Positions 2,468 through 47,520 of a stretch of DNA of 47,520 bases are shown one piece after another. Origin of the DNA: a virus; IMG/VR virus record IMGVR_UViG_3300032050_006297, positions 1 to 47,520 of that record. One strand, written 5' to 3'. A program made the position numbers and the translations under genes. Within the stretch, counting starts at the first letter, position 1, and every line of letters begins with the position of its first letter. The notes under the pieces are model-generated. The model had not been told where the DNA came from. It was given only the letters and a program-made list of their open reading frames with translations, and made no database searches.

Positions 2468-2468
2468 T

Positions 2469-7728: not shown

Positions 7729-7733
7729 TTTTG

Positions 7734-7801: not shown

Positions 7802-7816
7802 AATACGATAGATACG

Positions 7817-8642: not shown

Positions 8643-8926
8643 GCTTAGTGAATGTAGGCGATGTATTTGTAGAATGGAATGGGATTCTAAACACTGCTAA
8701 TTCAGCAGCTTTTGTCTTTGGTGAAACTCCGAGCGGAGCGGTCAATGGATCAAATGCAACCTTCACAAGTTTGCAAAATTTCGTACCTCAAAGCGTTCAA
8801 GTATTCATCAACGGTGTATCTCAGACGAACGGCGTTGACTATACGACATCAAGTACTTCAACAATTACAATGAATGTTAGCCCCGTATCAGGTGACTATA
8901 TTAGAATAAATTATAAAGTAGGATAA
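8639..8926 (+). CDS. Small fibre-associated beta protein, 95 residues (arm A)
   Basis: Nearly the whole protein is one repeat-like domain: FVFGETPSGAVNGSNATFT, VQVFINGV, DYTTS...TITM and GDYIRINYK. The same domain forms the C-terminus of the next gene product (FVFEEIPSGSINGSNVTFT ... LNGVRLKSG ... DYTLS). So one structural unit exists both free and fused in neighbouring genes. It is likely a virion decoration or fibre-tip domain. Arm B has the same pair at 45770 and 46077. Confidence 0.65.
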   Translation: MSLVNVGDVFVEWNGILNTANSAAFVFGETPSGAVNGSNATFTSLQNFVPQSVQVFINGVSQTNGVDYTTSSTSTITMNVSPVSGDYIRINYKVG

Positions 8927-8930
8927 TACA

Positions 8931-9755: not shown

Positions 9756-9757
9756 TT

Positions 9758-10579
9758 ATGCCACAAACAAAATTAAATAATACTCAACTGCCTAACACGA
9801 TTAGTAGCAAGACAATTGATAGTAGCAATACAATCAATACGGATCTAACTAAGTTATCGGTTGCAGGTGGTACGAATGGTCAAGTATTAAGCACCAACGG
9901 AAGCGGGTCGCTATCTTGGGCTACGGCTGGTGGTGGTGGTGTCAGTGATGGAGATAAAGGCGATGTAACCGTATCTAGTTCAGGTGCAACTTGGACAATA
10001 GATAACGGCGCGGTAAGCTATGCAAAGATTCAAGATGTATCGGCTACTTCGCGCTTGCTTGGTAGAGCTAGTGCAGGCGCTGGTGATGTCGAAGAGATTA
10101 CAATAGGTAGCGGTTTAACTTTGACTGGCACTACCCTATCTGCGAGCGGTGGTGGTGGGGGGCTTGGCGCTCCAACTTATGTAGTAACTAAAACTGCAGA
10201 TGAAACAGTTACTAGCTCTACGACTTTGCAAGATGATGACCACTTATATCAAGCATTGACAAGCGGTAAAAGTTATTGGATAGAATTCAAATTTCTAATT
10301 ACAAGAACAGATACTACTAATACGCCTACATTAGCAATTGCAGTAGATGGTAATAGCGAAGGGTATGTAGATGCAACGACTTTAGCAAATGGGACTACTA
10401 GTCTATCTCTTGGTAATGTATCGAATAATTCTGGCATTCCAAGAAGACAATTATCTACTACGGCGCTAAAACTTTCAACAAACTATACTGTCAAACTTAA
10501 ATGGGCTCAAAATGCATCAAGTGCAACTGGTACAACTTTGATGAAAGGTAGCCAAATGATTATATGGGAGGTTGCATAA
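9758..10579 (+). CDS. Tail-fibre-like protein, 273 residues (arm A N-terminus)
   Basis: Low-complexity, Gly/Ser/Thr-rich fibre protein. The N-terminal LNNTQLPNTISSKTIDSSN is followed by [24 protein letters not shown] and GDKGDVTVSSSGATWTIDNGAVSYAKIQ, a pattern shared by many fibre proteins. A glycine stretch (GGGGGL) leads into a C-terminal globular region from about residue 145. From 10244 the DNA is identical to the last 127 bases of the window, while the part before is diverged between arms. The arm boundary therefore falls inside the C-terminal domain of this gene. Confidence 0.75.
   Translation: MPQTKLNNTQLPNTISSKTIDSSNTINTDLTKLSVAGGTNGQVLSTNGSGSLSWATAGGGGVSDGDKGDVTVSSSGATWTIDNGAVSYAKIQDVSATSRLLGRASAGAGDVEEITIGSGLTLTGTTLSASGGGGGLGAPTYVVTKTADETVTSSTTLQDDDHLYQALTSGKSYWIEFKFLITRTDTTNTPTLAIAVDGNSEGYVDATTLANGTTSLSLGNVSNNSGIPRRQLSTTALKLSTNYTVKLKWAQNASSATGTTLMKGSQMIIWEVA
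10244..10370 (+). repeat. 127-bp exact repeat, internal copy
   Basis: Identical over 127 bases to 47394-47520, the very end of the window. The base before differs (C at 10243, T at 47393). The repeat lies inside a tail-fibre gene and has no mobile-element features. It is best explained as an assembly-graph join between strain variants. Confidence 0.9.
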
Positions 10580-10788
10580 TGGAAATAACACTCTATAAAA
10601 AAACTGAAGCCGTAAATAGCAATCCGATCGCATTTGATGCTGATGGCAATGCGACTGAATACGGCGAGCCATTCCCAGTCATGCTATGGAAATTCAAAGA
10701 TGAGAACGGCAATCTTTGGAATACTGAAACTGCAATTGATGGAACTGAAGAAGAAGCCGCTTCAATTATTCTAGGCAATAATCAGTGA
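10579..10788 (+). CDS. Small acidic late protein, 69 residues
   Basis: Unrecognised. The start is taken at ATG 10579, which overlaps the fibre gene stop as TAATG. The protein begins MEITLYKKTEAV and is rich in acidic residues (DADGNATEYGEPF, EEEAASII). Small acidic proteins directly behind fibre genes often act as fibre assembly chaperones or short virion proteins, but no motif supports this. The next gene overlaps it by GTGA. Confidence 0.65.
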   Translation: MEITLYKKTEAVNSNPIAFDADGNATEYGEPFPVMLWKFKDENGNLWNTETAIDGTEEEAASIILGNNQ

Positions 10789-32565: not shown

Positions 32566-33169
32566 TGCCACCCAGCTTGAATCTTACCGCCGCTTTCTTG
32601 ATGGTCTAATAACAGTCGAGCAGTTCGAGCGCTCACTTTTGAGACTTGATCCGCCGAATGCAATGATGCAAAGAGGCATAGAGTTTCACGAAATGATGCA
32701 GACTGATTCGCCTCAAGAGTTCGAAGGACAGTTCAGCAATAACTGCATTATCAACGCCCGCAATTGCATGGATTACCGCTCGCGAGTGTTCGAGTATAAA
32801 GTTCGCCGTGTCTTCCGCACTCAATTCGGTGATATATCAGTAACAGGCGTCGCAGACCAGCTTATCGGACTTGATGTTGTAGAAATCAAAACAAAATACA
32901 GTCCCATTAATTTCGATGCCTATTACAACTCAATACAATGGCGTGTATATTGCGAGCTTTTCAACGCTCCCTTTGTACATTACAAGATATTCGAGTTCGA
33001 CTCACCTGAAGCTATGGACTTTAAAAACAAAGCAGAATACTCATTTCCGAGACCCGCCTACAATTACGAATATGTCCGAAACATGATACACTACTTACAT
33101 GAGTATATCTTAGTTCGAGGGCTTGATAAAGAGCCTGCATTAAATACAAAAAAATGGAGTACTGCATGA
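32552..33169 (+). CDS. PD-(D/E)XK nuclease (RecB/Cas4-like exonuclease)
   Basis: The 205 residues show the nuclease core: His in GIEFHEMM (near residue 47), Asp in VTGVADQLIG, the E-x-K in VVEIKTKY and the Q-W-R-V-Y helix motif. Phage members are 5'-3' exonucleases that prepare ends for a single-strand annealing protein; here the Sak4-like gene is about 0.8 kb upstream. AAGGAGGTGGAAG before ATG 32552 is a strong ribosome site. From the following gene onward base composition turns AT-rich. Confidence 0.8.
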   Translation: MIKISATQLESYRRFLDGLITVEQFERSLLRLDPPNAMMQRGIEFHEMMQTDSPQEFEGQFSNNCIINARNCMDYRSRVFEYKVRRVFRTQFGDISVTGVADQLIGLDVVEIKTKYSPINFDAYYNSIQWRVYCELFNAPFVHYKIFEFDSPEAMDFKNKAEYSFPRPAYNYEYVRNMIHYLHEYILVRGLDKEPALNTKKWSTA

Positions 33170-33591
33170 AAAAGATAGCACCATTCTTTGCAGAGTATAC
33201 AGTTTGGGAGGACTACATAAATGGCATGTATAATCCTTATAATCAGAGCGAAGAGGAACAATTAGTGAGCTATGCTGTAGAAGTTTTAAGCAATAAATCG
33301 TTATTTAAAAGAACATGTTTGTCCTTGCTTATAGATTGGCCAATATCGTCAAAGGTTAATTTAAGCAATCAATTCTGTAATAGACGAGCTTGGTTAGGGC
33401 AAGCTGCTTGTAGCTATAAATTTAGAGTTCCTGAAATATGCACAAGAATAGCCTGGTCAAGATTAACTGACATGCAAAGATATGAAGCAAATAAAGTAGC
33501 TGATACAATAATTAATTATTTCGAGAACACATATGAGAAAGAGAGTAAAAGAATATATCAAAAAATGGACAACTACAGTCTATTTGAATGA
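33166..33591 (+). CDS. Conserved helical protein opening the AT-rich IbrA/IbrB cassette
   Basis: The 141 residues are helical with the pattern NRRAWLGQAACSY ... ICTRIAWSRL ... QRYEANKVADTIINYFE. I recall similar N-R-R-A-W-x-G-x-A-A-C / A-N-x-V-A-D proteins near ParB and PAPS-reductase-like genes in phages, but no function is established. The start at ATG 33166 overlaps the nuclease stop as ATGA. The gene and those after it are clearly richer in A and T than the previous block, suggesting joint acquisition. It overlaps the next gene by 59 bases. Confidence 0.6.
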   Translation: MKKIAPFFAEYTVWEDYINGMYNPYNQSEEEQLVSYAVEVLSNKSLFKRTCLSLLIDWPISSKVNLSNQFCNRRAWLGQAACSYKFRVPEICTRIAWSRLTDMQRYEANKVADTIINYFENTYEKESKRIYQKMDNYSLFE

Positions 33592-33796
33592 TTTACCAGA
33601 CGAAGCTCCAAGAAGGCTAGAAGAGCTTCACAAAGTTCCTAGTTATAGACAAATTTGTATTGCTATACTTAAAAACGACAAGTATCTTAAAACATTAGGT
33701 CAAAGTCAACCTGTTAGCAAAGTCTATAGTCAATTAAAAAGAAAAGAGCTTGAAGAAAGAGGTGTAATACCAAAACAATGGAGACTAGAAATATGA
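33533..33796 (+). CDS. Stand-alone copy of the IbrA-type C-terminal domain
   Basis: The 87 residues end with DEAPRRLEELHKVPSYRQ and ICIAILKNDKYLKTLGQSQP, which resembles the C-terminal DUF3440-like region of IbrA proteins. The large IbrA-like protein encoded next has its own version (VTSWKRFAITILKNDHTCKYLGLAP). So a detached domain precedes the full enzyme. It could be a duplicate kept as a subunit, or a remnant of an older IbrA gene. It begins inside the previous gene and ends in an ATGA overlap. Confidence 0.6.
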   Translation: MRKRVKEYIKKWTTTVYLNDLPDEAPRRLEELHKVPSYRQICIAILKNDKYLKTLGQSQPVSKVYSQLKRKELEERGVIPKQWRLEI

Positions 33797-35073
33797 ATAA
33801 GAATGTTTATGAGGCTTCGATTGAAAGGATTGATTTTATCTTTAAAAACTTTAAAAAAATTTATGTTAGTTTCTCTGGTGGTAAAGACTCTGGTGTTATG
33901 CTTAACCTGGTTTTGCAGTATATGAGAAATAACAACATAAAAGATAAAGTGGGGGTAATGATATTAGATAATGAAGCCAATTACAATTTGTCCTTAGAGT
34001 TTATGCATTCTATCTTAGAAGCTAATCTTGATTTACTTGATGTTTACTGGTGTTGTTTACCTATAACTTTGCCTTGTACTGTTTCCTCCTATGCGACAGA
34101 ATGGCAATGTTGGGGAGAAAGAGATAAAGCAAGATGGATTAGACCAATGCCAACTAATAGCTATGTAGTTAATATAGATAACCATAAATTTGACTTTTTT
34201 GAAGAAGACATGAGTTATCAAGAATTTTGGGATAAATTTGGTGATTGGTATGGACAAGGCGAAGAAACTGCTTGTTTGATTGGAATCAGAACTCATGAAA
34301 GCTTGAACCGTTGGAGAGCAATACAAAACGAAAATAAGATAATGAAACACGGCAAAAAGTGGACAAAGAAAAATACAAAATTTGTTTTTAATTGTTACCC
34401 TATTTACGATTGGAGAACTGAAGATATTTGGGTTGCAAATTGCAAGTTTGAATGGAATTACAACAAGCTCTATGATATATTTTGGAAAGCAGGTCTTTCT
34501 ATACATCAAATGAGAGTTGCGTCACCATTTATGAGTGAAAGTAAATCTAGCTTAAATTTGTATCGCGTTATAGATCCTCATGTATGGGTTACTTTATGCG
34601 CAAGAGTGCAAGGTGCAAACTTTGTTGCAACTTATGGAAAACAACTTAATTACCACTCTTTCAAACTGCCTGAAGGTCATACATGGAAAAGCTTTGTCAA
34701 GTTTTTATTAGATACTTTGCCACCAGAGGTAGCTGAAAATTTTAAGATGCGCTTTGCTCAAAGTCTAAGATATTGGGCAAGAGTAGGGCGCGGACTTGAT
34801 GATAAGGTTATAAAAGACCTCGAAAATAACAATGTTCTTTTTAATCTTGGAAATAAAACTAGGCATGGGAAAAAGGTAAAAACTTGCGTAAAGATGATAC
34901 CACCTGATCATTTAGACTTTTTAAGGTGCCACAATTCAGAAGTTACAAGCTGGAAAAGATTTGCAATAACAATCTTGAAAAATGATCATACTTGTAAATA
35001 TCTTGGATTAGCTCCTACTGCAGAGCAAGCAAAAAGGCAAAGACAAATTATGGAAAAATACAAAAATATCTAG
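33793..35073 (+). CDS. IbrA-like PAPS reductase/sulfotransferase-family protein
   Basis: The 426 residues belong to the PAPS reductase/ATP pyrophosphatase superfamily, IbrA branch: SFSGGKDSGVM near residue 27 is the PP-loop, DNEANYN follows the second strand, LIGIRTHESLNR is the family R-x-x-E-S-x-x-R motif and NCYPIYDWRTEDIW the next block. In DndC and tRNA-thiolating relatives this fold activates a substrate by adenylation. IbrA itself is paired with a ParB-like IbrB, and the same pairing occurs here. The likely role is nucleic acid or metabolite modification, unproven. The start at 33793 is the ATGA overlap. GC in 33841-33900 is about 27 per cent. Confidence 0.82.
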   Translation: MNKNVYEASIERIDFIFKNFKKIYVSFSGGKDSGVMLNLVLQYMRNNNIKDKVGVMILDNEANYNLSLEFMHSILEANLDLLDVYWCCLPITLPCTVSSYATEWQCWGERDKARWIRPMPTNSYVVNIDNHKFDFFEEDMSYQEFWDKFGDWYGQGEETACLIGIRTHESLNRWRAIQNENKIMKHGKKWTKKNTKFVFNCYPIYDWRTEDIWVANCKFEWNYNKLYDIFWKAGLSIHQMRVASPFMSESKSSLNLYRVIDPHVWVTLCARVQGANFVATYGKQLNYHSFKLPEGHTWKSFVKFLLDTLPPEVAENFKMRFAQSLRYWARVGRGLDDKVIKDLENNNVLFNLGNKTRHGKKVKTCVKMIPPDHLDFLRCHNSEVTSWKRFAITILKNDHTCKYLGLAPTAEQAKRQRQIMEKYKNI

Positions 35074-35082
35074 GAGTATAAA

Positions 35083-35457
35083 ATGAAAATAGTTGAAGAA
35101 TTTGAACTTATCGGTTCAGAAAGAGATGTAGACGGCATAGGTTTTAAATCCTTGCGTTATTTATTGGCTAGTGACAATATGGGATTTTCACTTCACAAAA
35201 CAATAATACCTAAAGGCGGCCCTTATTATTGGCATTACAAGAAACATTACGAAGCTTGCTTCTGTGTCAGTGGAGAAGGTTTGTTGCATGACATGGTTAA
35301 GAATAAATATTATTCTATAAAACCAAATACAACCTATGTATTAGACAATAATGATCCACACACTTTCGAAGCTTTAACCGATGTAGTTTTAATATCTATA
35401 TTTAATCCACCAGTAACAGGCCGCGAAATACATAAAGAAGACGGTAGTTACGAATAA
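35083..35457 (+). CDS. Cupin protein resembling ectoine synthase (EctC)
   Basis: The 124 residues follow EctC closely in layout: a LRYLLASDNMGFSLHKTII segment, HYKKHYEACFCVSGEG (metal-binding cupin motif), YYSIKPNTTYVLDNNDPHTF and IFNPPVTGREIHKEDGSYE at the end. EctC cyclises N-acetyl-diaminobutyrate to ectoine by loss of water. No ectA or ectB is present, so osmolyte synthesis is improbable. Placed between IbrA- and IbrB-like genes, it may catalyse a related dehydration or cyclisation on another substrate. It has AT-rich codon use like its neighbours. Confidence 0.8.
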   Translation: MKIVEEFELIGSERDVDGIGFKSLRYLLASDNMGFSLHKTIIPKGGPYYWHYKKHYEACFCVSGEGLLHDMVKNKYYSIKPNTTYVLDNNDPHTFEALTDVVLISIFNPPVTGREIHKEDGSYE

Positions 35458-35472
35458 AAAAATGGAGTGTTT

Positions 35473-35988
35473 ATGAGCAATTTTAAAAGCCCTGTATACA
35501 ATGTGTTAAGAGTACATATTGATAAAGTTCAAGCAAATGATTATAACCCTAATAAAGTAGCTCCACCAGAAATGGAGCTTCTAGAGACCTCTATTTGGGA
35601 AGACGGCTATACTCAACCAGTAGTAACTTATTATGATAGTGAACTTGATAAGTATATTGTTGTTGATGGATTCCATAGATATACAATCCTTAAAACATCG
35701 AAAAGAGTATATGAAAGAGAAGAAGGGCATTTACCAGTAGTGGTAATCGACAAGCATATATCAGATAGAATGGCTTCGACGATTAGGCATAATCGCGCAA
35801 GAGGATCGCATAATATAGACTTAATGTCAAACATAGTTTCTGAATTAGTAGAAATGGGTAAAGGGGACGCATGGATATGTAAACATATAGGCATGAGCAA
35901 AGATGAACTTTTGCGATTAAAGCAAATTACAGGCTTAGCTTCGCTGTTTGCAAATACTTCGTTTTCTATGTCTGAGGAAGGAGATTAA
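35473..35988 (+). CDS. IbrB-like ParB-domain protein
   Basis: The 171 residues carry the ParB/sulfiredoxin-fold N-terminal domain: V..DKVQANDYNPNKVAPPE, EDGYTQPVVTYYD, YIVVDGFHRYTIL (the G-F/x-H-R box), then IRHNRARGSH and a helical C-terminus (WICKHIGMSKDELLRLKQ). ParB-type domains can bind or hydrolyse CTP or ATP and some act on DNA bases. The IbrA/IbrB pair is a known unit. ATG 35473 with GGAG upstream is chosen over GTG 35467. It closes the AT-rich cassette. Confidence 0.8.
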   Translation: MSNFKSPVYNVLRVHIDKVQANDYNPNKVAPPEMELLETSIWEDGYTQPVVTYYDSELDKYIVVDGFHRYTILKTSKRVYEREEGHLPVVVIDKHISDRMASTIRHNRARGSHNIDLMSNIVSELVEMGKGDAWICKHIGMSKDELLRLKQITGLASLFANTSFSMSEEGD

Positions 35989-35990
35989 AT

Positions 35991-36299
35991 ATGAAAATAT
36001 CCGCCCTATACAAAGAAGTCGCTGGCATCGAGACTTCGCTCAAGCCCGGCGTGCCATTGTCTCAGCAATTACGCGAGGAACGCAAGGTAATCGAGAGAAC
36101 TGCTATCGGATATCAAAAAAGCAATCGCGAAGGCCTTACACCAGATGAAAGACAAGGCATTACGCCGCTTGCTCTCAAGTTACCACGCGCAATGGCAGAT
36201 CGATTCCGAGCACTTGCAAAAGCGCAAAATATCTCACAAAGAGAGCTATTCCGCCGAGCACTAACTAAATACTTTAAAGATTTTGAGGATGTGAAATGA
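35991..36299 (+). CDS. Ribbon-helix-helix-like DNA-binding protein with shared N-terminal motif
   Basis: The 102 residues end in a ribbon-helix-helix-like unit: ALKLPRAMADRFRALAKAQ, NISQRELFRRALTKYF. The N-terminal part carries VPLSQQLREERKVIER, a motif that recurs in the next two proteins (SLSEQLREEREELER and LPLSAILKIEREEL). It probably binds DNA as a dimer, perhaps as a regulator or replication accessory. Base composition returns to that of the replication block. ATGA overlap with the following gene. Confidence 0.68.
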   Translation: MKISALYKEVAGIETSLKPGVPLSQQLREERKVIERTAIGYQKSNREGLTPDERQGITPLALKLPRAMADRFRALAKAQNISQRELFRRALTKYFKDFEDVK

Positions 36300-36898: not shown

Positions 36899-37339
36899 AT
36901 GCCCTTACATCCGATCGGTCACATTAGTGATCTCGCGCAAGATACAAACCCTAAGCCGCTGGCTACGCTCCCGCTTTCTGCGATTCTTAAAATAGAACGC
37001 GAGGAATTGTTCGGAAATCGAACAAAGAAACCGCGCGGGCGTGTTCGAAAACTGAACACGGCCGAACTCTATGAAGTATCTGAGCGGGTTATTCAAGTAG
37101 TCGCGGAATACTACGGCGTATCAGTTCAGCATATCCACCAGCGCCAAAGCTTCGCAAGGCATGTGGCAATAACTATATGCTATCAAGACTTCAACTTTAC
37201 CATGACCGATATTGCCTTTATCTTTAATTGTGACCGTAAATTGCCTATTATTGCAGCCCGAAATATCAAACACGAGCGCATACTAGATCCTAACTTTAAC
37301 GAAATCTACTTACAACTTATTCGCAAGGCCAAGGCATGA
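36899..37339 (+). CDS. Second DnaA domain IV-like protein, 146 residues
   Basis: After LPLSAILKIEREEL and a basic stretch (KKPRGRVRKL), residues about 60-135 match DnaA domain IV: VIQVVAEYYGVSVQHIHQRQ, ARHVAITICYQDFNFTMTDIAFIF and a final helix. A GAGGAAAAAGT ribosome site supports ATG 36899. It overlaps the primase-helicase ATG at 37336 by ATGA, linking it to replication. The two domain IV-like proteins may form an initiator pair for the repeats at 39577-39790; this is inference. Confidence 0.66.
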   Translation: MPLHPIGHISDLAQDTNPKPLATLPLSAILKIEREELFGNRTKKPRGRVRKLNTAELYEVSERVIQVVAEYYGVSVQHIHQRQSFARHVAITICYQDFNFTMTDIAFIFNCDRKLPIIAARNIKHERILDPNFNEIYLQLIRKAKA

Positions 37340-39549
37340 GAATCACTGAATACACGAGCGCACAAGCTACTGAACAAAAGGACTTCAGAGACATTGTGCA
37401 ATTCTTTTGGGATATAAAAAGAGGGAGGTGGGAGGATATAGTAACTCCCTACCGTAACATGAAAACCAAAGAAGAACAAAAAGCCGCAAAGAGCAAAATG
37501 CCAGCTTTTGCAATGTCAGGAGAGTTCCAAGGCAGAGGCGTCGCATCACTGGTAAAACATAACGGCGTCATCTGCATGGATATCGACGATCAAGACAATA
37601 TAGACATAAACGAAAAGATTGATAAACTTCGAGCCGATAAGCATATCCTAGCACTTCATATGTCACTCGGTGGTTATGGATACGCTGCTTATTTTAAGAT
37701 TGACCCAAACAAGCACCTTGAATCATTCGAAGGCCTTGAAGACTATCTACTCGAAAACTATCAACTCGAATGCGATCCATCATGCAAAGATATAAGCAGA
37801 TTGCGTTTTGTATCCTATGATCCTAACATAGTCACTAATGATCCGGACAAAGTACCAGTATTCACACGATACAGAAAGAAAGTAGCTCAAACAGCACCAA
37901 AGGTTATGCACGCCATAATCGAACCGGATGTAGAGCACATGATAAAACAACTCCGAGCAAGACGCATCGATTTAGTGAATGACTATGGCGATTGGGTTAA
38001 TGTCGGTAGAGCACTTGCTACCGAATATGGTGAACGCGGCCGCGACTTCTTTCACCAAATATCCGAGATCAATAGCAATAAATACGACGCACAAAAGACT
38101 GATAAAAAGTATGACAATATACTTGCAACTAATAAAGGCGTCATAGGTATTGGAACTCTATTCTATCTATGCAAAAAGTATAACATTGACATTCAAACCG
38201 AAAGAACAAAGAAGTGGGAGGCTGCAGCTACTTCAATGGTGCGTAATGGACGCATGAGTAAAGATGATATCAAGCGCTCTGTTGGTAAACTTGCCGAATC
38301 TGAAGGCGAAGACCCAAAAGAAGCACTGGAAATAGCAGATAAAGTCATAAATACACCAAAAGAACAGCTCAAAAAGGAAAAAGACGACAATATCATTCCT
38401 CTTATGAAGGTAATGCTAAAAGAATTTGACCTCAAACGCAATGAATTAACTCATGAAATCGAATATAAAGGCAAAGCGATTACTGATACAGATATGAATA
38501 GCATTTACATCCAATTGACTGAGTCTCTTGGGCCTAAATGCACTCAAACATACTTTAATGCCATAATATACTCGGACTTTATACCTACATACAACCCATT
38601 TCTAGAGTTTTTTGAGTTACATAAGAGTAAAACAGCCGAAAACTGCATAGAAAAATTAGCTAATTGTATAACCTTTGATAATCAAGGTACTCCATACGAA
38701 GAATACGAGGCCTACGCACATAGATTCTTGCAAAAGTGGATAGTTTCTATCGTTGCATCTATGCATGGGACTTATTCTCTCTTAATTCTGGTCTTAGTTG
38801 GTGGTCAAGGGATAGGAAAGACAAATTTCTTTCGTTGGCTACTACCAAAAGAGCTAATTAACTACTATGCAGAGTCAAAACTTGACCGAGGGAAAGACGA
38901 TGAAGTCCTTATGTGCAAAAAACTGATTATTTGTGATGATGAATTCTCCGGTAAGTCAAAATCGGAATACAAACACATCAAGGACATAAGCTCAAAGCAA
39001 ACTATCACTCTTAGATTGCCGTATGGACGCACTACGCAGGATTTTACACGATATGCCGTACTTTCAGGAACTTCAAATGACCTTGAGATCATAAACGACC
39101 CTACAGGGAACCGCCGTATCGTACCCCTAAACATAAAATCAATTGACTTTGACGCATATAATGCAATTGACAAAGCAGACTTATTCATGGAAGCATATCG
39201 CATCTATCACACCCAAGGCGATAGCTCTTGGCAACTCACTAAGGCTGATATTGAAACACTTAACCAGCTCTCTGCATATAATGAGCAAATCGATACAGTC
39301 GAAGAGTCAATCATGATGTTTTTTACGCAAACAGATGATTCATCTGAAGAGAATTGCAAGACAACAACCGAAATAATTGCACATATGATGCAATTTACAA
39401 AGCTCCACTTCAATCCGCAAAGGGTTGGTATCGCAATGAAGAATTTAGGCTTCGATAGGATCACCAAGCGCAGAAATGGCAAGCCAGTGAAGTGTTATAA
39501 GGTAAAACAAGTCCTTACTACACCATCCTACTACGACATTAATGGGTAA
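37336..39549 (+). CDS. Primase-helicase, BT4734-like, PriCT-2 and VirE domains (arm B)
   Basis: Homologue of the gene at 21-2255 with the same three parts: BT4734-like N-terminus (CMDIDDQDN, SLGGYGYAAYF), PriCT-2-like (DWVNVGRALATEYGE) and VirE helicase with Walker A GGQGIGKT near residue 490 and ICDDEFSGKS. Conservation is highest in the helicase part (TYSLLILVL, ESKLDRGKDDE, NDPTGNRRI) and lowest in the linker around 300-460 and at the C-terminus. Here the upstream initiator-like genes are visible and overlap by ATGA. Confidence 0.9.
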   Translation: MRITEYTSAQATEQKDFRDIVQFFWDIKRGRWEDIVTPYRNMKTKEEQKAAKSKMPAFAMSGEFQGRGVASLVKHNGVICMDIDDQDNIDINEKIDKLRADKHILALHMSLGGYGYAAYFKIDPNKHLESFEGLEDYLLENYQLECDPSCKDISRLRFVSYDPNIVTNDPDKVPVFTRYRKKVAQTAPKVMHAIIEPDVEHMIKQLRARRIDLVNDYGDWVNVGRALATEYGERGRDFFHQISEINSNKYDAQKTDKKYDNILATNKGVIGIGTLFYLCKKYNIDIQTERTKKWEAAATSMVRNGRMSKDDIKRSVGKLAESEGEDPKEALEIADKVINTPKEQLKKEKDDNIIPLMKVMLKEFDLKRNELTHEIEYKGKAITDTDMNSIYIQLTESLGPKCTQTYFNAIIYSDFIPTYNPFLEFFELHKSKTAENCIEKLANCITFDNQGTPYEEYEAYAHRFLQKWIVSIVASMHGTYSLLILVLVGGQGIGKTNFFRWLLPKELINYYAESKLDRGKDDEVLMCKKLIICDDEFSGKSKSEYKHIKDISSKQTITLRLPYGRTTQDFTRYAVLSGTSNDLEIINDPTGNRRIVPLNIKSIDFDAYNAIDKADLFMEAYRIYHTQGDSSWQLTKADIETLNQLSAYNEQIDTVEESIMMFFTQTDDSSEENCKTTTEIIAHMMQFTKLHFNPQRVGIAMKNLGFDRITKRRNGKPVKCYKVKQVLTTPSYYDING

Positions 39550-39576
39550 ATTTAACAAAAACTGCCCTATTCAAAA

Positions 39577-39790
39577 TGTAGTAAGACTTAGCAAAAAAAA
39601 GCCCTAAAACTATTATACAATTACATATACATATAGGCCAATATACTAGTACTCTTATTATTCTATAATAGTTTATTTTAAATATTTACTTACTACACTT
39701 ACTACACTTATGTAAGTCACTAAATTACAACAACTTACGATGTAGTAAGACTTAAAAAACTCTTACTACACTCTTACTACACTTACTACA
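39577..39790. repeat. Origin-like region with seven CTTACTACA 9-mers (arm B)
   Basis: Exact CTTACTACA lies at 39689-39697, 39698-39706, 39762-39770, 39773-39781 and 39782-39790, and its complement TGTAGTAAG at 39577-39585 and 39741-39749. Both complements extend to the 14-mer TGTAGTAAGACTTA. The block fills the gap between primase-helicase and SF2 helicase with AT-rich sequence between the clusters. It is most likely an iteron-type origin. The last repeat ends two bases before the helicase ATG, so the binding protein could also control that gene. Confidence 0.68.
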
Positions 39791-39792
39791 TT

Positions 39793-41220
39793 ATGATTTC
39801 ACTAAGACCATACCAACAAATTGCTATCCAAAACCTTCGACAAGCCTATGCTGATGGCCACAAAAAAGTCATTCTTTGCGCTCCGACCGGAGCGGGAAAA
39901 ACGGTTATGTTCTCTGCTATCGCTCAAGGCGCACTGCAGAAAGGCAAAAGAGTGATGATACTTACCGACCGAGGCGAACTGCTATGGCAAGCAGGCGGGG
40001 CGCTTAATAACCTTGCAATCGTGCCGGAACTCATTACAGCCGAAACTACCAGAGTCAACTCAAGCCAGCGTATTTTCGTTGCTATGATCGAGACGATATA
40101 CCGCCGAGCTGAACAGCGGATCTACAGCGAACTGCTAAACAGCGTGGACTTATTCATATTTGATGAGTGCCATAAGAGGACATTTGATAAGATCGTAGCT
40201 CGATTACCTGAAAATGCAATGATACTTGGAGCGACGGCTACTCCGGTAAGGGATACAAGCGGCAAGCCATTAAAGGATATTTATACACACATTGTCGAAG
40301 CTGCAAGCATAACACACTTGGTAGATGAAGGGTATCTTGCAAATCCTCACTATTATTCAGTCGCAGTGGATTTGAAGAACATAGGGACAAAAGGTGGAGA
40401 CTTTGACATGGATGCTTTGGCAAGGCACTACCAAACTACCGAGCTATACAAGGGCGTTGTGGATAATTACAAGAAGCACGCGAATGGGACAAAGGCTTTG
40501 CTCTTTGCCCCTAATTTAGATAGTGCTCATGAGGTATTGCAAGAAATACAGAAAGCAGGTTATCAAGCAAAGAGCTTAGACGCATCTGCAAGCCGCGAGG
40601 AGAGGCGAAATACATTAAAGTGGTATAAAGAGACGGCTGGATCATTTTTGGTGAATGTAGGGCTTTTTACGACAGGGTTTGATGAACCTACAGTAGAGAC
40701 AGTTATTTTATACCGTGCAACTAAAAGTCTTGCATTATATTTGCAAATGATTGGACGCGGATCTCGGACTACCGAAAACAAAAAAGATTTCAGAGTTCTT
40801 GACTTTGGTAATAACTTAGCAAGGTTCGGTGTATGGGATGCAGATAGAGAGTGGAGCTTAGATGAGAAAGTAAAGAAGAAGACTCCAGGCGTTCCTCCGA
40901 TGAAGCATTGTCCACAATGCGAGAGCATGAATCACATAAGCGCAAAAGATTGTGCATGGTGTGGATTACCATTTGAGAAGAGCGATGACGAGAAGATCCG
41001 AGAATATGTGATGCTGGAAAAATGGGAAGCAAGGCGCAAGGCTGTTAACTCCGATGCAAAGGATTGGGCTTTGTTAACCAAGGCAAAGAAGGTAAGTGCT
41101 TTTTGGGTATTGCATAAATGCTGCAAGACCATGGAAGATGCAGAGAATTACCGAGATGCCATGGGATATAAAAAAGGATGGTTATATTACCACAAAGATA
41201 GAACAGGACACTTGAGATGA
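39793..41220 (+). CDS. Superfamily 2 DEAD/DEAH-type DNA helicase (arm B)
   Basis: The 475-residue homologue of 2469-3887 has the same motifs: APTGAGKT, DECH, GATATP, TTGFDEP, QMIGRGSR and a CPQC...CAWCG zinc ribbon. It starts at ATG two bases after an origin repeat. Identity is very high in the first 130 residues and lower around the ATATP-following insertion. The stop overlaps the next gene (ATGA). Likely role: fork or recombination helicase. Confidence 0.92.
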   Translation: MISLRPYQQIAIQNLRQAYADGHKKVILCAPTGAGKTVMFSAIAQGALQKGKRVMILTDRGELLWQAGGALNNLAIVPELITAETTRVNSSQRIFVAMIETIYRRAEQRIYSELLNSVDLFIFDECHKRTFDKIVARLPENAMILGATATPVRDTSGKPLKDIYTHIVEAASITHLVDEGYLANPHYYSVAVDLKNIGTKGGDFDMDALARHYQTTELYKGVVDNYKKHANGTKALLFAPNLDSAHEVLQEIQKAGYQAKSLDASASREERRNTLKWYKETAGSFLVNVGLFTTGFDEPTVETVILYRATKSLALYLQMIGRGSRTTENKKDFRVLDFGNNLARFGVWDADREWSLDEKVKKKTPGVPPMKHCPQCESMNHISAKDCAWCGLPFEKSDDEKIREYVMLEKWEARRKAVNSDAKDWALLTKAKKVSAFWVLHKCCKTMEDAENYRDAMGYKKGWLYYHKDRTGHLR

Positions 41221-41378
41221 CTACCGAGCAATGGCTTAACGATATGATAGACGATATAGTCATGGAATACGGCGTGTCTCATGATATTGCAAGGGTTATG
41301 CTGTATGCTTGGCTTGCAGAGGTTTTGCGCTGGAGTCCGAAGTTTTACGCTATGATGGAGTATTTGCTGAATGAGTGA
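41217..41378 (+). CDS. Small conserved protein of 53 residues (arm B)
   Basis: Counterpart of 3884-4051. It reads MTTEQWLNDMIDDIVMEYG, then VSHDIARVM and a C-terminal EYLLNE. It overlaps the helicase stop by ATGA and the next gene by 8 bases. Conservation of reading frame, length and placement in both arms is the evidence for a gene. Function unknown. Confidence 0.7.
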   Translation: MTTEQWLNDMIDDIVMEYGVSHDIARVMLYAWLAEVLRWSPKFYAMMEYLLNE

Positions 41379-41691
41379 GCAACAACTACAAGCGCACTGT
41401 TTTACATGGCATTGGAATAATTGCCCTGAAGAGCGCGGGCTTTTGTACATGAATCACAATAACCCCCGCGACGCGAGGCAAGGCGCTCAGCTTAAGGTGA
41501 TGGGTATGATATCGGGCGTTGCAGATATGACTTACCTATCCAAGAGCGGTCCGATATTCTTGGAGTTCAAGACCGCGACGGGACGGCAAACAGACCGCCA
41601 AAAGTGGTGGCAGGCGCAAGTCGAAGCGGTGGGGTATCGATATTGCATAATAAGAAATTTCGAAGAGTTTGTAAAGTCCATAGATATTTGA
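41371..41691 (+). CDS. VRR-NUC domain nuclease (arm B)
   Basis: The 106-residue homologue of 4048-4371 has the core GVADMTYL, the E-x-K in FLEFKTATGRQT and KWWQAQ. The N-terminal half is almost unchanged from arm A (TWHWNN, LLYMNHNNPRDAR). In this arm the methyltransferase gene at 41705 follows directly; there is no C5 DNA methyltransferase or promoter in between. Confidence 0.82.
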   Translation: MSEQQLQAHCFTWHWNNCPEERGLLYMNHNNPRDARQGAQLKVMGMISGVADMTYLSKSGPIFLEFKTATGRQTDRQKWWQAQVEAVGYRYCIIRNFEEFVKSIDI

Positions 41692-41704
41692 GTATATTAC
41701 ACTT

Positions 41705-42286
41705 ATGAATCATTACTACCAAAACATTCAAGGCTGGTTTGACTATGAAGAGATAATCAAGCTAGCAATTGACAAAGCCGAAGACGGCGCAAAGTTTGTA
41801 GAGATCGGAGCTTGGAAAGGCAAGAGCGCCGCTTATGCAGGGGTGGAAATTCTTAACAGCGGTAAGGATATTACCTACTATGCTGTAGATCATTTCCTAG
41901 GCTCTGAAGAGCACCGCAACCCCGTGAGTGACTTTTACGACTTTAAGTGCCAAAGTGGTGAATTACGAACGGAATATCATGCAAACATCGAGCCTGTTAG
42001 CAAGGTGATCAAAACCTACGACATGACAAGCGCGCAAGCGTCTAAGAATTTCAAGAAGCGAAGCGTTGACTTTATCTTCATTGACGGCTCGCATGACTTC
42101 GACTCGGTATGCAGCGATATTGAGATATGGCTACCGAAACTCAAGCCGGGCGGAATGATCGGCGGTCACGATTATACGACGCATGAAACAGTCAAACAAG
42201 CAGTCGACACATATTTTACGGACTTGCAAATTATCGGCAAGTCATGGTTATACATTTCAAGGAGTGGAGAGAATGGCAAAGATTGA
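41705..42286 (+). CDS. Class I SAM-dependent methyltransferase, Methyltransf_24 type (arm B)
   Basis: The 193-residue homologue of 5164-5745 has FVEIGAWKGKSAAYAG, VDHFLG, DFIFIDGSHD and GGMIGGHDY. The start is ATG rather than GTG. A stretch ATATTTGAGTATATTACAC lies just upstream and could hold a weak promoter, but the CTAAGTCC box is missing. It overlaps the DUF3127 gene by 14 bases. Target unknown; neighbouring glycosyltransferases suggest glycan methylation. Confidence 0.85.
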   Translation: MNHYYQNIQGWFDYEEIIKLAIDKAEDGAKFVEIGAWKGKSAAYAGVEILNSGKDITYYAVDHFLGSEEHRNPVSDFYDFKCQSGELRTEYHANIEPVSKVIKTYDMTSAQASKNFKKRSVDFIFIDGSHDFDSVCSDIEIWLPKLKPGGMIGGHDYTTHETVKQAVDTYFTDLQIIGKSWLYISRSGENGKD

Positions 42287-42596
42287 GATTAGCGGCGAGG
42301 TGGTGTATGTCGGAGCGCCTGTAAAGTATTCCGATAAGTTTACCAAAGCGGAGATCGTGGTAAAGGACTCGACAAGCAAGTATCCAGAGTTTATCAAGTT
42401 CGAGGCGATTAACGACAAGGTCGAACTCATGCGAGGCTATCCAGTTGGTACTCAAGTAATTGCAGAGGGTTTTGTCGGTGGCAAGGAATACCAAAAGAAA
42501 GAAGGCGGGATAGGATACATCACAAGTATCAAGCTCGCTAAGATTTATGAAAACAAGCCAGCGCCTGTAGAGGTCCCCGATGCTATACCATTTTGA
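42273..42596 (+). CDS. DUF3127 protein, single-stranded-DNA-binding-like (arm B)
   Basis: The start at ATG 42273, after AAGGAGTGGAGAG, is chosen because similarity with the arm A protein begins there (KIEISGEV); the frame is open further upstream. The 107 residues include YSDKFTKAEIVVKDSTS, YPEFIKFEAINDK and the SSB-like tip DAIPF. Same length as in arm A. Confidence 0.8.
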   Translation: MAKIEISGEVVYVGAPVKYSDKFTKAEIVVKDSTSKYPEFIKFEAINDKVELMRGYPVGTQVIAEGFVGGKEYQKKEGGIGYITSIKLAKIYENKPAPVEVPDAIPF

Positions 42597-42840
42597 CGAT
42601 CACTTTGACGAGATGCCTACCCTTGACTGGGAGGAACTCAAAGACAAAGACTTCAAGACCGAGATAATGAAAAACGGCGTGCCTTTCGAGGCGCGTCTGT
42701 TTCTCGCGGGTTCGGGATGGAAGCTGAAGTTAACTAACAAGGTAACAGGCCGATACGCTTTGGAGCTTCGCTTCCGTAATATGAGTCTTAACGATGCGAT
42801 GGTAAAAGCGGAGTTTTACATATTGGAGAACTTGGAATGA
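42580..42840 (+). CDS. Conserved hypothetical protein of 86 residues (arm B)
   Basis: Homologue of 6049-6306, overlapping the DUF3127 gene by 17 bases in the same way. Conserved KNGVPFEARLF, KLTNKVTGRYALELRFRN and the NDAMVKAEFYILENLE end. Function unknown; the fixed partnership with DUF3127 suggests joint action. Its stop overlaps the start of the GT25-like gene, which is inserted here compared with arm A. Confidence 0.75.
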   Translation: MLYHFDDHFDEMPTLDWEELKDKDFKTEIMKNGVPFEARLFLAGSGWKLKLTNKVTGRYALELRFRNMSLNDAMVKAEFYILENLE

Positions 42841-43442
42841 GACTATCCGAGTGTGATGTTAGGTATATCAATTTAGATACGGCTCTTAGCAATCGAATAG
42901 AGATGGAGCGCCAGTTTGGAATGCTTGGCATGAATAAGACCGAGCGGATAAGTGCAAAGACAATACCAGCGCCAAGCGGTTCTAAATTTGATAAGCACTT
43001 TGTCGGATGTGGCCAGTCTCATATAGACGCCCTGCAGTCAGGTGAAGCGCCGTTGCTAATACTTGAAGACGATGCACAAGTTACCGAAGACTACCGAGAA
43101 GAGATAGATATTCCACACGGCGCGGATGCGATCTATCTTGGTTGGTCAACAGCTAATAAGAGAATGACGGTAAAGAACTTCAGCGAACACTTGGTAAAGG
43201 TTACAGGCTTAGCGGCGGCTCATGCTATACTCTATTTGAGTAAACGATTTAAAGACTATGCAGAGAATGCAATCAGAGTTGCAATCTATGAAGAGCAAGT
43301 TCCTTTGGATGTGATGCTTGCGTATATTCAAAAAGACTTCAATGTCTATGCAGTTCGCAAGCCGTATTTTATTCAATCGAATGCACGATATTCGCTAAAC
43401 AAATGGGAATCACTAACAAGAGGCGAACTACATGAGACTTGA
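42837..43442 (+). CDS. GT25-like glycosyltransferase (arm B only)
   Basis: The 201 residues resemble GT25 enzymes of lipooligosaccharide synthesis: VRYINLDTALSNRIEMERQ at the N-terminus, GCGQSHIDAL, the LLILEDDAQV acidic motif, and a C-terminal YIQKDFNVYAV segment. It would add a sugar in the cytoplasm. The gene is absent from arm A, where the GT7-like gene directly follows the 85-residue protein gene. Gain or loss took place without disturbing the ATGA-type junctions. Confidence 0.8.
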   Translation: MRLSECDVRYINLDTALSNRIEMERQFGMLGMNKTERISAKTIPAPSGSKFDKHFVGCGQSHIDALQSGEAPLLILEDDAQVTEDYREEIDIPHGADAIYLGWSTANKRMTVKNFSEHLVKVTGLAAAHAILYLSKRFKDYAENAIRVAIYEEQVPLDVMLAYIQKDFNVYAVRKPYFIQSNARYSLNKWESLTRGELHET

Positions 43443-44067
43443 AGTAATTATTCCCTATCGCAATCGCGAGGCTCACATACGTAAGCAAGTGCCTCACCTG
43501 TTTAAGACGCTTGAGGCTCAAGGCTTGGACTTTGGTATTACCATTGTAGAGCAAGAAGAGGGAAAGCTCTTTAATACTGGCATGATGAAAAATATAGGAT
43601 TCCTAGAGTCGCAGCATGCTGACTACTTTTGCTTTCATGATGTGGATATGTACGCTCAAGATGCAGACTACTCACCAGTCACAATGCCCACTCACTTGGC
43701 AAGATATGTAGAGCAGTATGATTGGGATATACCTTACCGGGCTTACTTTGGCGGTGTGACGTTATTCGACAAGGAGAGTTACCGCAAAATAAACGGCTAC
43801 TCCAATGAATACTGGGGTTGGGCTGTTGACGATGACGATCTATATTGGAGATGCGTATTGACAGGCTTTGCAAGAAGGGAGGGCTGGTTCTACAGTGATG
43901 ATCATGACCGTGAGAACTATGACAAATGGCAAGAAGAAAACTGGGCTAAGTTTCAGGCTTCGCTTTTGGATACTGAAGCCAAGAGTGGAATTACAACAAC
44001 GGAATATACAATACTAGAGTCTAAGCAATTTAATCCACAGCTTAGACGTATTTTAGTTTCTATTTAG
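43432..44067 (+). CDS. GT7-like (beta-1,4-galactosyltransferase-type) glycosyltransferase (arm B)
   Basis: The 211-residue homologue of 6303-6935 keeps VIIPYRNREAH, KLFNTGMMKNIGF, FHDVDMYAQD, FGGVTLFD and NGYSNEYWGWAVDDDDL. W-G-W here matches the GT7 consensus even better than the arm A copy (L-G-W). It overlaps the GT25-like gene by 11 bases. The C-terminal 40 residues differ more, which may reflect a different acceptor. Confidence 0.83.
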   Translation: MRLEVIIPYRNREAHIRKQVPHLFKTLEAQGLDFGITIVEQEEGKLFNTGMMKNIGFLESQHADYFCFHDVDMYAQDADYSPVTMPTHLARYVEQYDWDIPYRAYFGGVTLFDKESYRKINGYSNEYWGWAVDDDDLYWRCVLTGFARREGWFYSDDHDRENYDKWQEENWAKFQASLLDTEAKSGITTTEYTILESKQFNPQLRRILVSI

Positions 44068-44078
44068 GAATAATCACA

Positions 44079-44345
44079 ATGGATGCAATTAAGACCTTTG
44101 TCCCTTTGGTCGCATTATCAGTCATTGCACTTGGTGCGACCTTAGGCGTGGGAGATGGGAGTTTTAGCACATTCGCGGTCGGTCTTAGCAAGTATGCACT
44201 TGCAGTTGGGGCGGCGTGGTTTGTGGATTCGTACTTAATCAAGGAGGTAAATACTCGTGAAATTATCGCACAAAATCCTATCGCTTACGCTCTTTACTTG
44301 TCTGCAAATATCATCACAGCCGCTCTCTGCTTCAGTCAGTCCTAA
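44079..44345 (+). CDS. Small membrane protein, probable holin (arm B)
   Basis: The 88-residue counterpart of 6949-7218 has almost identical hydrophobic segments (LVALSVIALGATLGVG, YALAVGAAWFVDSYL, YALYLSANIITAALCF). The last 89 bases also encode the endolysin start in another frame. The middle part is conserved even at the nucleotide level. Confidence 0.6.
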   Translation: MDAIKTFVPLVALSVIALGATLGVGDGSFSTFAVGLSKYALAVGAAWFVDSYLIKEVNTREIIAQNPIAYALYLSANIITAALCFSQS

Positions 44346-44814
44346 GGTTCTGCTTATAGCCAAGGGATTTATAGGCACGAAAGAAGAGGGCAATAACGGC
44401 GGCTACTGGGTTCGCCGCTTTCAAGCGAGCACTAAGAGCCCAAAGGGCGCTCAATGGTGTGCAAGTTTTGTCAACTTTTGTCTTGACTCTGCAGGGGTCA
44501 AGGGTTTGCCGTTTACTGGATCGGGCTTGGCTAGGCACTTCGCTACTCGGAATAAGACCATAAAGGCTACCAAGGTAATTGCTGAAAACATGACCTTACC
44601 ACCGGGCACAATCATTGTATGGCGGAGGGGAACTACTCCTTTTGGTCATGCAGGGATAGTAGATAAATGGCAAGGTAAAACAGGAACTACAGTCGAGGGC
44701 AATACAAGCTCCGGACTTCGCGGCTCTCAGCATGACGGCGATGGCGTTTGGGCAAGAACGCGAGTAATCAACCCTACCTCATACTTCAGGATTACGGATT
44801 TCGTTATTTATTAA
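44257..44814 (+). CDS. Secreted endolysin, CHAP/C40-like cysteine peptidase (arm B)
   Basis: The 185-residue homologue of 7130-7687 has GTG start, AAGGAGG ribosome site and a signal peptide (MKLSHKILSLTLFTCL ... LSAS). The catalytic GAQWCASFVNFC, FGHAGIV and VEGNTSS are unchanged. The signal peptide is the part that varies most, as expected for a region that must also encode the holin-like helix in another frame. Confidence 0.86.
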   Translation: MKLSHKILSLTLFTCLQISSQPLSASVSPKVLLIAKGFIGTKEEGNNGGYWVRRFQASTKSPKGAQWCASFVNFCLDSAGVKGLPFTGSGLARHFATRNKTIKATKVIAENMTLPPGTIIVWRRGTTPFGHAGIVDKWQGKTGTTVEGNTSSGLRGSQHDGDGVWARTRVINPTSYFRITDFVIY

Positions 44815-44825
44815 AAATAAAATTT

Positions 44826-44855
44826 CTAAGTCCGTTTTACTTGTGCTTATATTTG
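44826..44855 (+). promoter_or_regulatory. Putative late promoter (arm B)
   Basis: CTAAGTCC (44826-44833), fourteen bases, TATATTTG (44848-44855). Box, spacing and -7 element match the arm A promoter although eleven of the fourteen spacer bases differ. Confidence 0.62.
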
Positions 44856-44860
44856 TTTTG

Positions 44861-44929
44861 CCAACATAGGCACTCCTTATCTCATGCCTTCACTCCGCGG
44901 GCGGTCTGTTTAGGCAGACCGCTTGTTTT
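44861..44929 (+). ncRNA. Putative short late-leader RNA (arm B)
   Basis: RNA of about 69 nt predicted from TATATTTG to the terminator. The 5' half differs from arm A at only two or three positions, including the AGGCA/TGCCT pairing and both CACTCC copies, whereas the terminator stem is completely different in sequence. Such selective conservation in a non-coding stretch suggests a functional RNA or antitermination site. Confidence 0.45.
44900..44929 (+). terminator. Intrinsic terminator directly after the late promoter (arm B)
   Basis: Eight-pair stem GCGGTCTG / CAGACCGC with loop TTTAGG, extended by a G-U pair, then TTGTTTT. Same place and tail as in arm A with full compensatory change of the stem. 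Confidence 0.8.
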
Positions 44930-44941
44930 AAGATAGATACA

Positions 44942-45238
44942 ATGGACATATTTAGTGAACTCTTGCGTAATGTTCTAGCGACTCTGGTAAGTACGGTAAC
45001 GATTGTTATTATGTTTTTCAGATTCATGAATAGGGAACGCTTGCAACACGCAAAACAAATTGCAGATGTCATAGAGAAAACGGCAAAGCACGTATTCAAT
45101 ACTGCTACTTTAGAGCACCGCGTAGCTAACTTGGAAAAGACCGAGAAAGAGCAAGCGGAATCGATAGACAAGCAATTTGCTTTGGTTCACTCAAGACTTG
45201 ATCAGATCTACTCCATAATTGCAGGGCTTAACAAGTGA
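44942..45238 (+). CDS. Membrane-anchored coiled-coil protein, 98 residues (arm B)
   Basis: Counterpart of 7817-8113 with the same length, one N-terminal membrane helix (LRNVLATLVSTVTIVIMFF) and a coiled coil (LEHRVANLEKTEKEQAESID). Substitutions cluster in the coiled coil. First gene behind the promoter-terminator module; lysis accessory role suspected. Confidence 0.7.
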   Translation: MDIFSELLRNVLATLVSTVTIVIMFFRFMNRERLQHAKQIADVIEKTAKHVFNTATLEHRVANLEKTEKEQAESIDKQFALVHSRLDQIYSIIAGLNK

Positions 45239-45435
45239 GTTTGCACTTTGGCTTCAAATATTGGAACGAGCCTACGCCTGCGAAGATTCGCAGAGTCGCG
45301 GGAGCTTTAGCCGCCGCTGGCATTGCCGGTTGCGGTTTTGCCTATTTACGCGATAACTTGGCTTTGGCGATTACGCTGTTAAGTCTCGCAGTTGGTGGGT
45401 CTTTCATTGCAAAGCTATTTACGGATAAGCCATGA
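45235..45435 (+). CDS. Two-helix membrane protein, holin-like (arm B)
   Basis: The 66 residues are nearly identical to the arm A copy (8110-8310), with only a few changes (for example G for S in the first helix). GTG start in a GTGA overlap. Two membrane helices fit a class II holin or antiholin. Confidence 0.66.
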   Translation: MSLHFGFKYWNEPTPAKIRRVAGALAAAGIAGCGFAYLRDNLALAITLLSLAVGGSFIAKLFTDKP

Positions 45436-45773
45436 GAAGAGATAGATTCAATATAGCAATTTACCGAGGTGAGACTTTCTCACTTGCAGTTGAATTGAAA
45501 GACGGAGACGGCGCGGCTATTAGCTTGGTCAATGCGACGCTTACCGCTCAATGCAGAGTAAAGGCTACAAATGCGACGCTCTTTACTTTCAATACGACAA
45601 TAACATCACCTGCAAGCGATGGTAAGTTTTCAATCTCTTTGCCGGGTGCTACGAGCCTTGCACTAACACCGCAAAAGGGGCTAGTGTATGATGTTAAGAT
45701 TGCATGGCTTGGTGGTGATACAAAGTATTGGCTTGGTGGTGATTTGGATATTATCGATACGGTGACTTCATGA
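45432..45773 (+). CDS. Tail or baseplate protein, BppU N-domain-like (arm B)
   Basis: The 113-residue counterpart of 8307-8642 keeps IYRGETFSLAVELK, LTAQCRVKATNATLFTF and GKFSISLPGATSLALTP. The C-terminal WLGGD...ITDTVT-type end is also similar. Divergence is higher than in the membrane proteins before it, in line with a host-range module. Confidence 0.6.
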   Translation: MRRDRFNIAIYRGETFSLAVELKDGDGAAISLVNATLTAQCRVKATNATLFTFNTTITSPASDGKFSISLPGATSLALTPQKGLVYDVKIAWLGGDTKYWLGGDLDIIDTVTS

Positions 45774-46072
45774 GTACTAACAATGTAGTCATTACGGCGC
45801 TTCCTGAAGTTGTCAGAGTTTCGGTTGGTGCTACAATCAACTCAGGCGCGGCGGTGTATATCTGGAATGAAACCCCGACGGGCACTATCAACGGCTCAAA
45901 TGCGACTTTCACATCATTGCAAAACTTTGTCCCAAACTCTTTGCAAGTCTTTATTAATGGCGTATTGCAAGTGCTTACAAACGATTATACGACAAGCGGC
46001 TCAACGACAATAACTCTTAATGTTTCGCCTGTCGTTGGTGATGTTATACGAATACATTACAAATTAGGATAA
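45770..46072 (+). CDS. Small fibre-associated beta protein, 100 residues (arm B)
   Basis: Counterpart of 8639-8926 with a longer N-terminus. Same domain: WNETPTGTINGSNATFT, LQVFINGVLQ, DYTTS...TITL and GDVIRIHYK. The domain is again repeated at the end of the following protein. Confidence 0.65.
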   Translation: MSTNNVVITALPEVVRVSVGATINSGAAVYIWNETPTGTINGSNATFTSLQNFVPNSLQVFINGVLQVLTNDYTTSGSTTITLNVSPVVGDVIRIHYKLG

Positions 46073-46076
46073 TACG

Positions 46077-46901
46077 ATGGCTGAAACTACAATAGCAGGC
46101 CGCCAGATACGCGATGGAGCTATAACAAATAGCAAAGTCGCTGCAGGTGCTGCAATAGATTCGAGTAAATTAGCGGACGGCGCAAACTTTGTCAAGAAGG
46201 ATGGGAGCGTAGCGTTTACGGGCGCTCAGTCAATGGGTAACAACAAGCTTACTACCCTTGCGACTCCGACAGACTCAGGCGATGCTGCAACTAAGGGATA
46301 TGTAGATACGCAAATATCTGGATTACCAAGCGCTTACAAGTATCGAACTGTAAAAGCGGCTACGATTGCAAACATCAATTTAAGCAATCCCGGTACTGAT
46401 ACTTTCGATGTCGTAACTTTAACAAGTGGCGATAAGCTTTTAGTCAAAGACCAAAGCACCCAAAGCCAAAACGGTATCTATGTTTTCAACGGCTCTTCAA
46501 GCGCTTTGACTCGTGCAACTGATTCGGACGCATGGGATGAGCTTGTAGGTTCTCTTGTCTATGTCGATCAAGGTTCTACTCAAGGTGAATATAGATTCTA
46601 CTGCACTTCAAATAGTGGCGGTACGCTTGGTTCTACGGCGGTTGTATATGTTCGTGATTTAAGCGGTACTCTGACTAATAGCAACTTTGTATTTGAAGTA
46701 ACTCCGAGCGGAACTATTGACGGCTCGAATACGGCGTTCACTTTACCTGACACACCGACTGCAGGGACTTTGCGCTTGCACTTGAATGGAATGAGACTAA
46801 AGTCAGGCGCGGGTAATGATTACACGATTTCAACAAATACAATCACGATGGCTACGGCTCCAATTAGCGGAGATATTCTTCTTTGCGATTACATGAAGTG
46901 A
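46077..46901 (+). CDS. Tail-fibre-like protein, 274 residues (arm B)
   Basis: Same length as the arm A homologue (8931-9755). TTIAGRQIRDGAITNSKV, SVAFTGAQSMGNNKLTTL and the C-terminal domain (FVFEVTPSGTIDGSNTAFT, LNGMRLKSG, DYTIS) are retained. Differences concentrate between residues 95 and 130 and around 200-230. Late operon, short spacing to neighbours. Confidence 0.78.
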   Translation: MAETTIAGRQIRDGAITNSKVAAGAAIDSSKLADGANFVKKDGSVAFTGAQSMGNNKLTTLATPTDSGDAATKGYVDTQISGLPSAYKYRTVKAATIANINLSNPGTDTFDVVTLTSGDKLLVKDQSTQSQNGIYVFNGSSSALTRATDSDAWDELVGSLVYVDQGSTQGEYRFYCTSNSGGTLGSTAVVYVRDLSGTLTNSNFVFEVTPSGTIDGSNTAFTLPDTPTAGTLRLHLNGMRLKSGAGNDYTISTNTITMATAPISGDILLCDYMK

Positions 46902-46907
46902 TAAGAG

Positions 46908-47520
46908 ATGCCAACAACAAAACTAAATAATGCTCAATTACCCGATGCCATTGCAAGCAAGACAATCGGGACTAGCAATACAATTGAAACTAACTTGACT
47001 AAGCTAACCATTGCAGGCGGGTCAAATGGTCAGGTATTATCTACGAATGGTAGTGGTACTTTGTCTTGGGCTACGGCGGGCGGTGGTGGTGTATCTGATG
47101 GAGATAAAGGGGATATCACTGTAAGTGGTAGTGGAGCTACTTGGACTGTAGATAATGACGCGGTTACTTATGCAAAGATTCAGAATGTATCAGCCGCTTC
47201 AAAACTATTAGGCCGTGGTGACTCAGGTTCAGGCGATGTGCAAGAGATTACACTCGGCACGGGCTTGACAATGACGGGCACTACTTTGGCCGCGAGTGGT
47301 GGCGGTAGCTCTCTTGGCGCTCCGACTTATGTAGTGACCAAGACTGCAGATGAAACAGTTACAAGCTCTACGACTTTGCAAGATGATGATCATTTATATC
47401 AAGCATTGACAAGCGGTAAAAGTTATTGGATAGAATTCAAATTTCTAATTACAAGAACAGATACTACTAATACGCCTACATTAGCAATTGCAGTAGATGG
47501 TAATAGCGAAGGGTATGTAG
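46908..47520 (+). CDS. Tail-fibre-like protein, 3' end outside the window (arm B)
   Basis: Partial gene beginning at ATG 46908 and still open at the last base. Its N-terminal part ([59 protein letters not shown]) is the homologue of 9758-10579. From 47394 the DNA is identical to arm A at 10244, so the intended continuation is probably 10371 onward, giving a protein of similar length. Confidence 0.78.
47394..47520 (+). repeat. 127-bp exact repeat, terminal copy
   Basis: The last 127 bases equal 10244-10370 exactly. Upstream the two arms are diverged. A length of exactly 127 at the end of a sequence is the overlap expected from a k=127 de Bruijn graph. Confidence 0.9.

Follow-up and report, generated by a model that had tools for sequence, protein, structure and literature searches.

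A 127-bp overlap within a 47.5-kb viral record points to a complete 37.15-kb phage genome with a circular map, preceded by an arm of a sister lineage

Why should a phage contig end in a sequence that it already contains ten kilobases from its beginning? The window analyzed here is the whole of virus record IMGVR_UViG_3300032050_006297, 47,520 bases long, and carries the genes of a tailed phage, namely terminase, portal, capsid, tape measure, primase, helicase, endolysin and methyltransferases. It contains two homologous arms, designated A and B, both of which encode a primase, a helicase, a methyltransferase, an endolysin, a decoration protein and the start of a fibre gene. A first-pass annotation, made from the letters alone, had read the last 127 bases as the overlap left by an assembler at the point where two strains meet, and we followed up this reading by comparing the window with itself, with its relatives and with published assembler settings. 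The features on which the argument turns are the following.

1 to 10243, + strand: arm A, ascribed to a sister-lineage phage and partial (primase, helicase, methyltransferases, endolysin and decoration protein, plus the fibre's N-terminal part)
9758 to 10579, + strand: tail-fibre-like protein of 273 aa, assigned by DUF5907, a phmmer match to the fibre gp28 of P-SCSP1u and the alignment of relatives
10244 to 10370, + strand: first repeat copy, an exact match within the part of the tail-fibre-like gene (9758-10579) that encodes the C-terminal domain, and the putative graph vertex at which arms A and B converge
10371 to 47520, + strand: predicted circular map of one phage of the B lineage, 37,150 bp, with the structural genes, variable islands and the replication and lysis arm B
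37336 to 47393, + strand: arm B, the counterpart of arm A in the circle's own phage, assigned by primase identity and by its clade in the primase tree
46908 to 47520, + strand: second copy of the fibre gene, in arm B, cut off by the contig end; continued at 10371 it gives the full 273-aa frame
47394 to 47520, + strand: second repeat copy, the k-mer overlap at the contig end (k = 127), so assigned from the exact match, the 127-bp overlaps of relatives and the JGI metaSPAdes k list

Self-comparison of the whole 47,520-base window confirmed the repeat and its extent: 47394-47520 and 10244-10370 are identical over 127 bp, and the longest suffix of the window that recurs in it is exactly 127 bp, its other copy starting at 10244. 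The bases on the 5' side of the two copies differ, as the first-pass annotation had pointed out (...GATCAT, with T at 47393, and ...GACCAC, with C at 10243), and identity between the copies runs out precisely at the contig end, 47520. Where they can be aligned, the arms are 77-79% identical (6891-10243 versus 44023-47393), and over the 1.4 kb before the repeat they are ~77% alike, a level at which the probability of 127 straight identities is ~5e-15, and so the repeat is not a product of chance. When scored in 50-bp bins, the identity of the two arms was mostly 60-82% over the last kilobase to ~10200, 94% at 10204 and 100% from 10254. No exact second copy (at least 20 bp) of the window's first bases was found within the window, indicating that the overlap exists at one end only. 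The exact 127-mer gave 0 matches in a search of viral_contigs, a type of collection from which near-identical records may be left out, and its longest exact word in any of 190 relative loci was 17 bp.

A length of 127 bp, ending at the contig end, corresponds to the largest k of the usual JGI setting, published JGI assemblies having been made by metaSPAdes with -k 33,55,77,99,127 (PMC7171226, PMC11256825); the k of this particular record may differ. The authors of COBRA described, for metaSPAdes, ends of maxK length where contigs meet repeats or shared regions (PMC10914622), and terminal repeats at k lengths were reported in the CheckV survey (PMC8116208). The window is like these cases in that its overlap equals the largest k and stops at a repeat or shared region, but unlike them it has one of its copies in the interior. 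The same length recurs among the relatives, as an exact 127-bp overlap was found between the two ends of G001 and between those of G006, closing them into circles of 37,464 and 37,697 bp, respectively. The other five of the seven near-complete relatives have no 127-bp end overlap, the one near the end of G007 measuring 126 bp rather than 127. Among 48 whole relatives, many contig ends match another contig over exactly 127 bp and then diverge, matches that are indirect evidence where they cross datasets, since a conserved stretch at which one contig stops, where strains diverge, may be present elsewhere too. The clean cases of k-overlap are the self-overlaps and the pairs from one dataset that share exactly 127 bp at their ends (L073/L074 and L039/L040). 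Overlaps of this length in relatives, together with the JGI k list, support the proposal of a k = 127 overlap from a SPAdes-type assembler; the repeat is an assembler overlap, well explained by known assembler behavior, and no biological repeat. Because one copy is internal, tests that compare one end of a contig with the other would be expected to miss it, going by the CheckV rule, under which repeats are sought at the start and the end.

The proposal further held that 10371-47520 closes into a circle of 37,150 bp, and this was compared with relatives gathered by a terminase scan of viral contigs (80 loci) and a scan with the arm B primase (11 loci). No contig obtained in these two scans was longer than 38,633 bp, and one primase each was found in 17 of 17 relative records searched. 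The seven near-complete relatives measure 37.0-38.6 kb (37,001-38,633 bp), versus 37,150 bp for 10371-47520, and all seven map in order onto this stretch when it is closed as a circle. Their start points on the circle differ (28831 for G001, 11073 for G002, 25904 for G003 and 21471 for G007), which makes the contig starts look arbitrary on a circular map. Closing 47520 to 10371 predicts that the arm is followed by the fibre and then by the structural genes, an order found in 46 relative loci. In five of these relatives' loci (L005, L008, L055, L071 and L072) the gap across the join was within 3 bp of the closed-circle prediction, while in most others it differed by small steps or by ~450 bp, where the fibre tip has another form, the differences being insertions and deletions in the variable fibre tip. 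Genome sizes and gene order across the closure thus both speak for the circle, and the usable product of the record would be a complete 37,150-bp genome at 10371-47520 with a circular map.

Uncultivated tailed phages of 37-38 kb with the circle's gene order are represented by IMGVR_UViG_3300044616_000585 (G001) and IMGVR_UViG_3300034104_002108 (G004); IMG/VR phages of this type are mostly 85-97% identical to the circle in DNA where aligned, but carry other fibre tips than the window. A close isolate reference was not found, as megablast of 1-24000 against isolate phages gave 0 matches and tblastn with the terminase gave only distant relatives, of less than 60% identity. An island at 33154-35990 (~33.2-35.9 kb) encodes a phosphoadenosine phosphosulfate reductase (33778-35073) and, at 35467-35988, a ParB-like protein; none of the seven near-complete relatives had DNA matching the bins at 33501-36000. 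The tape-measure stretch 22001-24000 matched G002 well in DNA and the other six hardly at all, marking it as a variable stretch of the gene.

We compared each part of the window with these relatives to establish its lineage. Arm A is 89-95% identical in most 500-bp bins to G005 (IMGVR_UViG_3300031951_000507) and mostly 71-84% to G001-G004/G007, whereas the window beginning at 10501 is mostly 85-97% identical to G001-G004/G007 where aligned and mostly 74-85% to G005. The structural genes of G005 mostly share 75-85% identity with those of the window, and it has a different fibre tip. The primase of arm B is 98-99% identical to those of L082, L084 and L085. In the primase tree, arm A groups with G005/G006 and arm B falls in the clade of L082-L085, and in the terminase tree the window lies in the B clade with G005/G006 outside it. 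From these identities and both trees, the window is judged to join two lineages, with the switch placed between ~9930 and 10576.

This lineage switch upholds the earlier claim that 1-10243 is the arm of a relative; the accompanying claim, that this relative shares the structural genes, lacks such support, as those of arm A's kin are mostly 75-85% (~80%) identical to the window's. With sharing throughout, the left end of arm A would be expected to be a 127-mer of the circle, and the first 127 bp of the arm are absent from it, leaving the sharing of all these genes unsupported. Likewise, a simple bubble would have both ends of the arm joined to the circle by a k-mer, and arm A, being joined at its right end only, is not one. 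The only certain sharing between arm A's phage and the circle is the repeat itself. A mixed arm was also observed in L059 (IMGVR_UViG_3300047557_001758), the left part of which is A-like (85-90%) and the region matching 44029-47313 B-like (87-92%), with structural genes at ~81%; this is either a natural mosaic around the fibre or a further case of merged strains.

The tail-fibre-like protein encoded at the join matched gp28 of cyanophage P-SCSP1u in phmmer (8i4m, E 5e-6, residues 67-162), and its alignment with relatives showed a conserved N-terminal part and hypervariability after ~residue 136. Beyond residue 135 the proteins of arms A and B are identical; in their DNA, the first 81 bases of this stretch differ by 7 silent changes and the next 127 by none. 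The nearest fibre tips elsewhere were 49-56% identical in a fibre-tip search of collections from which near-identical records may be left out, and the tip shared by both lineages was found in none of the other relatives compared. A recent exchange of the fibre-tip domain between the lineages is the likely cause of the shared tip. Whether it was a receptor-binding module that recently passed between lineages ~77% alike in one sample, with the conserved linker (28 residues) as the crossover site, is an evenly balanced matter. Over 9758-10788, the C-terminal domain that follows this linker occurs in several length classes, one of them ~450 bp longer.

Our preferred explanation, which we hold with high confidence, is that the repeat is a k = 127 overlap at a two-strain vertex and that the contig has the form of a lollipop, a complete 37,150-bp loop with a sister-lineage stem. 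The graph itself we infer as follows. A vertex of the de Bruijn graph would have been entered by two strains, the repeat being the k = 127 overlap there; the 37,150-bp loop would represent one phage as a complete circular map, and the stem of 10,243 bp, derived from a sister-lineage phage, would join it within the tail-fibre gene. Having walked the stem, the assembler would have circled the loop once and halted on meeting the entry k-mer again. That k-mer would be common to both lineages through the recent exchange of one fibre-tip domain, and the shared tip probably caused the join.

Alternatively, the contig may run on unbroken from arm A to the structural genes because a real recombinant phage exists, one that combines a sister-lineage arm with the circle's structural genes or near-identical versions of them, the crossover lying in the fibre gene. 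This is a sub-case compatible with the lollipop, as the contig would then be right from 1 to some point past 10370 and still be a strain merge, and we regard it as a real possibility that falls somewhat short of probable. The jump in identity at the boundary between the conserved linker and the hypervariable domain fits a recombinant, as do the arm of L059, also mixed, being A-like at the left and B-like in the fibre region, and the lack of a contig break after 10370, as a shared continuation would give; yet G005, G006 and L061, the relatives closest to arm A, each have their own structural set, mostly 75-85% identical to the window's; a clear combination of an A-like arm with B-clade structural genes was seen in none of the relatives fetched, and the arm does not rejoin the circle at its left end.

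Two further readings were rejected. Two related phages lying side by side in one DNA molecule, as tandem prophages or a real double genome, would agree with the two homologous arms that flank a single structural block on one contig, but this is very improbable given that the contig end falls at exactly 127 bp of identity, that the terminase scan of bacterial genomes found no relative, that the terminase and arm B primase scans found none above 38.6 kb, and that the window has no tRNA gene and that a comparison of 38 proteins with PHROGs identified no integrase, the lack of an integrase having already been raised against tandem prophages in the first-pass annotation. Short direct terminal repeats do occur in some phages, and a natural 127-bp repeat of this kind would mark the physical ends of the genome; here, however, the first copy lies 10 kb inside the contig, both copies are within coding sequence, and the sequence is conserved in no relative. 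Contradicted also by the relatives' varied start points on the circle, a natural terminal repeat has a next to negligible probability.

Taken at face value, the record is a 47.5-kb phage carrying two replication modules; on the lollipop reading it is a complete 37.15-kb genome to which a foreign arm has been added, and conclusions drawn from it on genome size, gene number or duplicated modules would be wrong. It offers a clean example of a chimera that would escape end-repeat tests, one in which the likely cause is visible, a fibre tip common to two lineages.

A lollipop-like form was also observed in G007 (L105, L106), the last 126 bases of which recur from base 9 (window orientation), leaving an 8-base stem. 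In addition, arm B contains a glycosyltransferase-like gene at 43432-44067 (Pfam Glyco_transf_7N and 7C), the DNA of which aligns with 6303-6712 in arm A.
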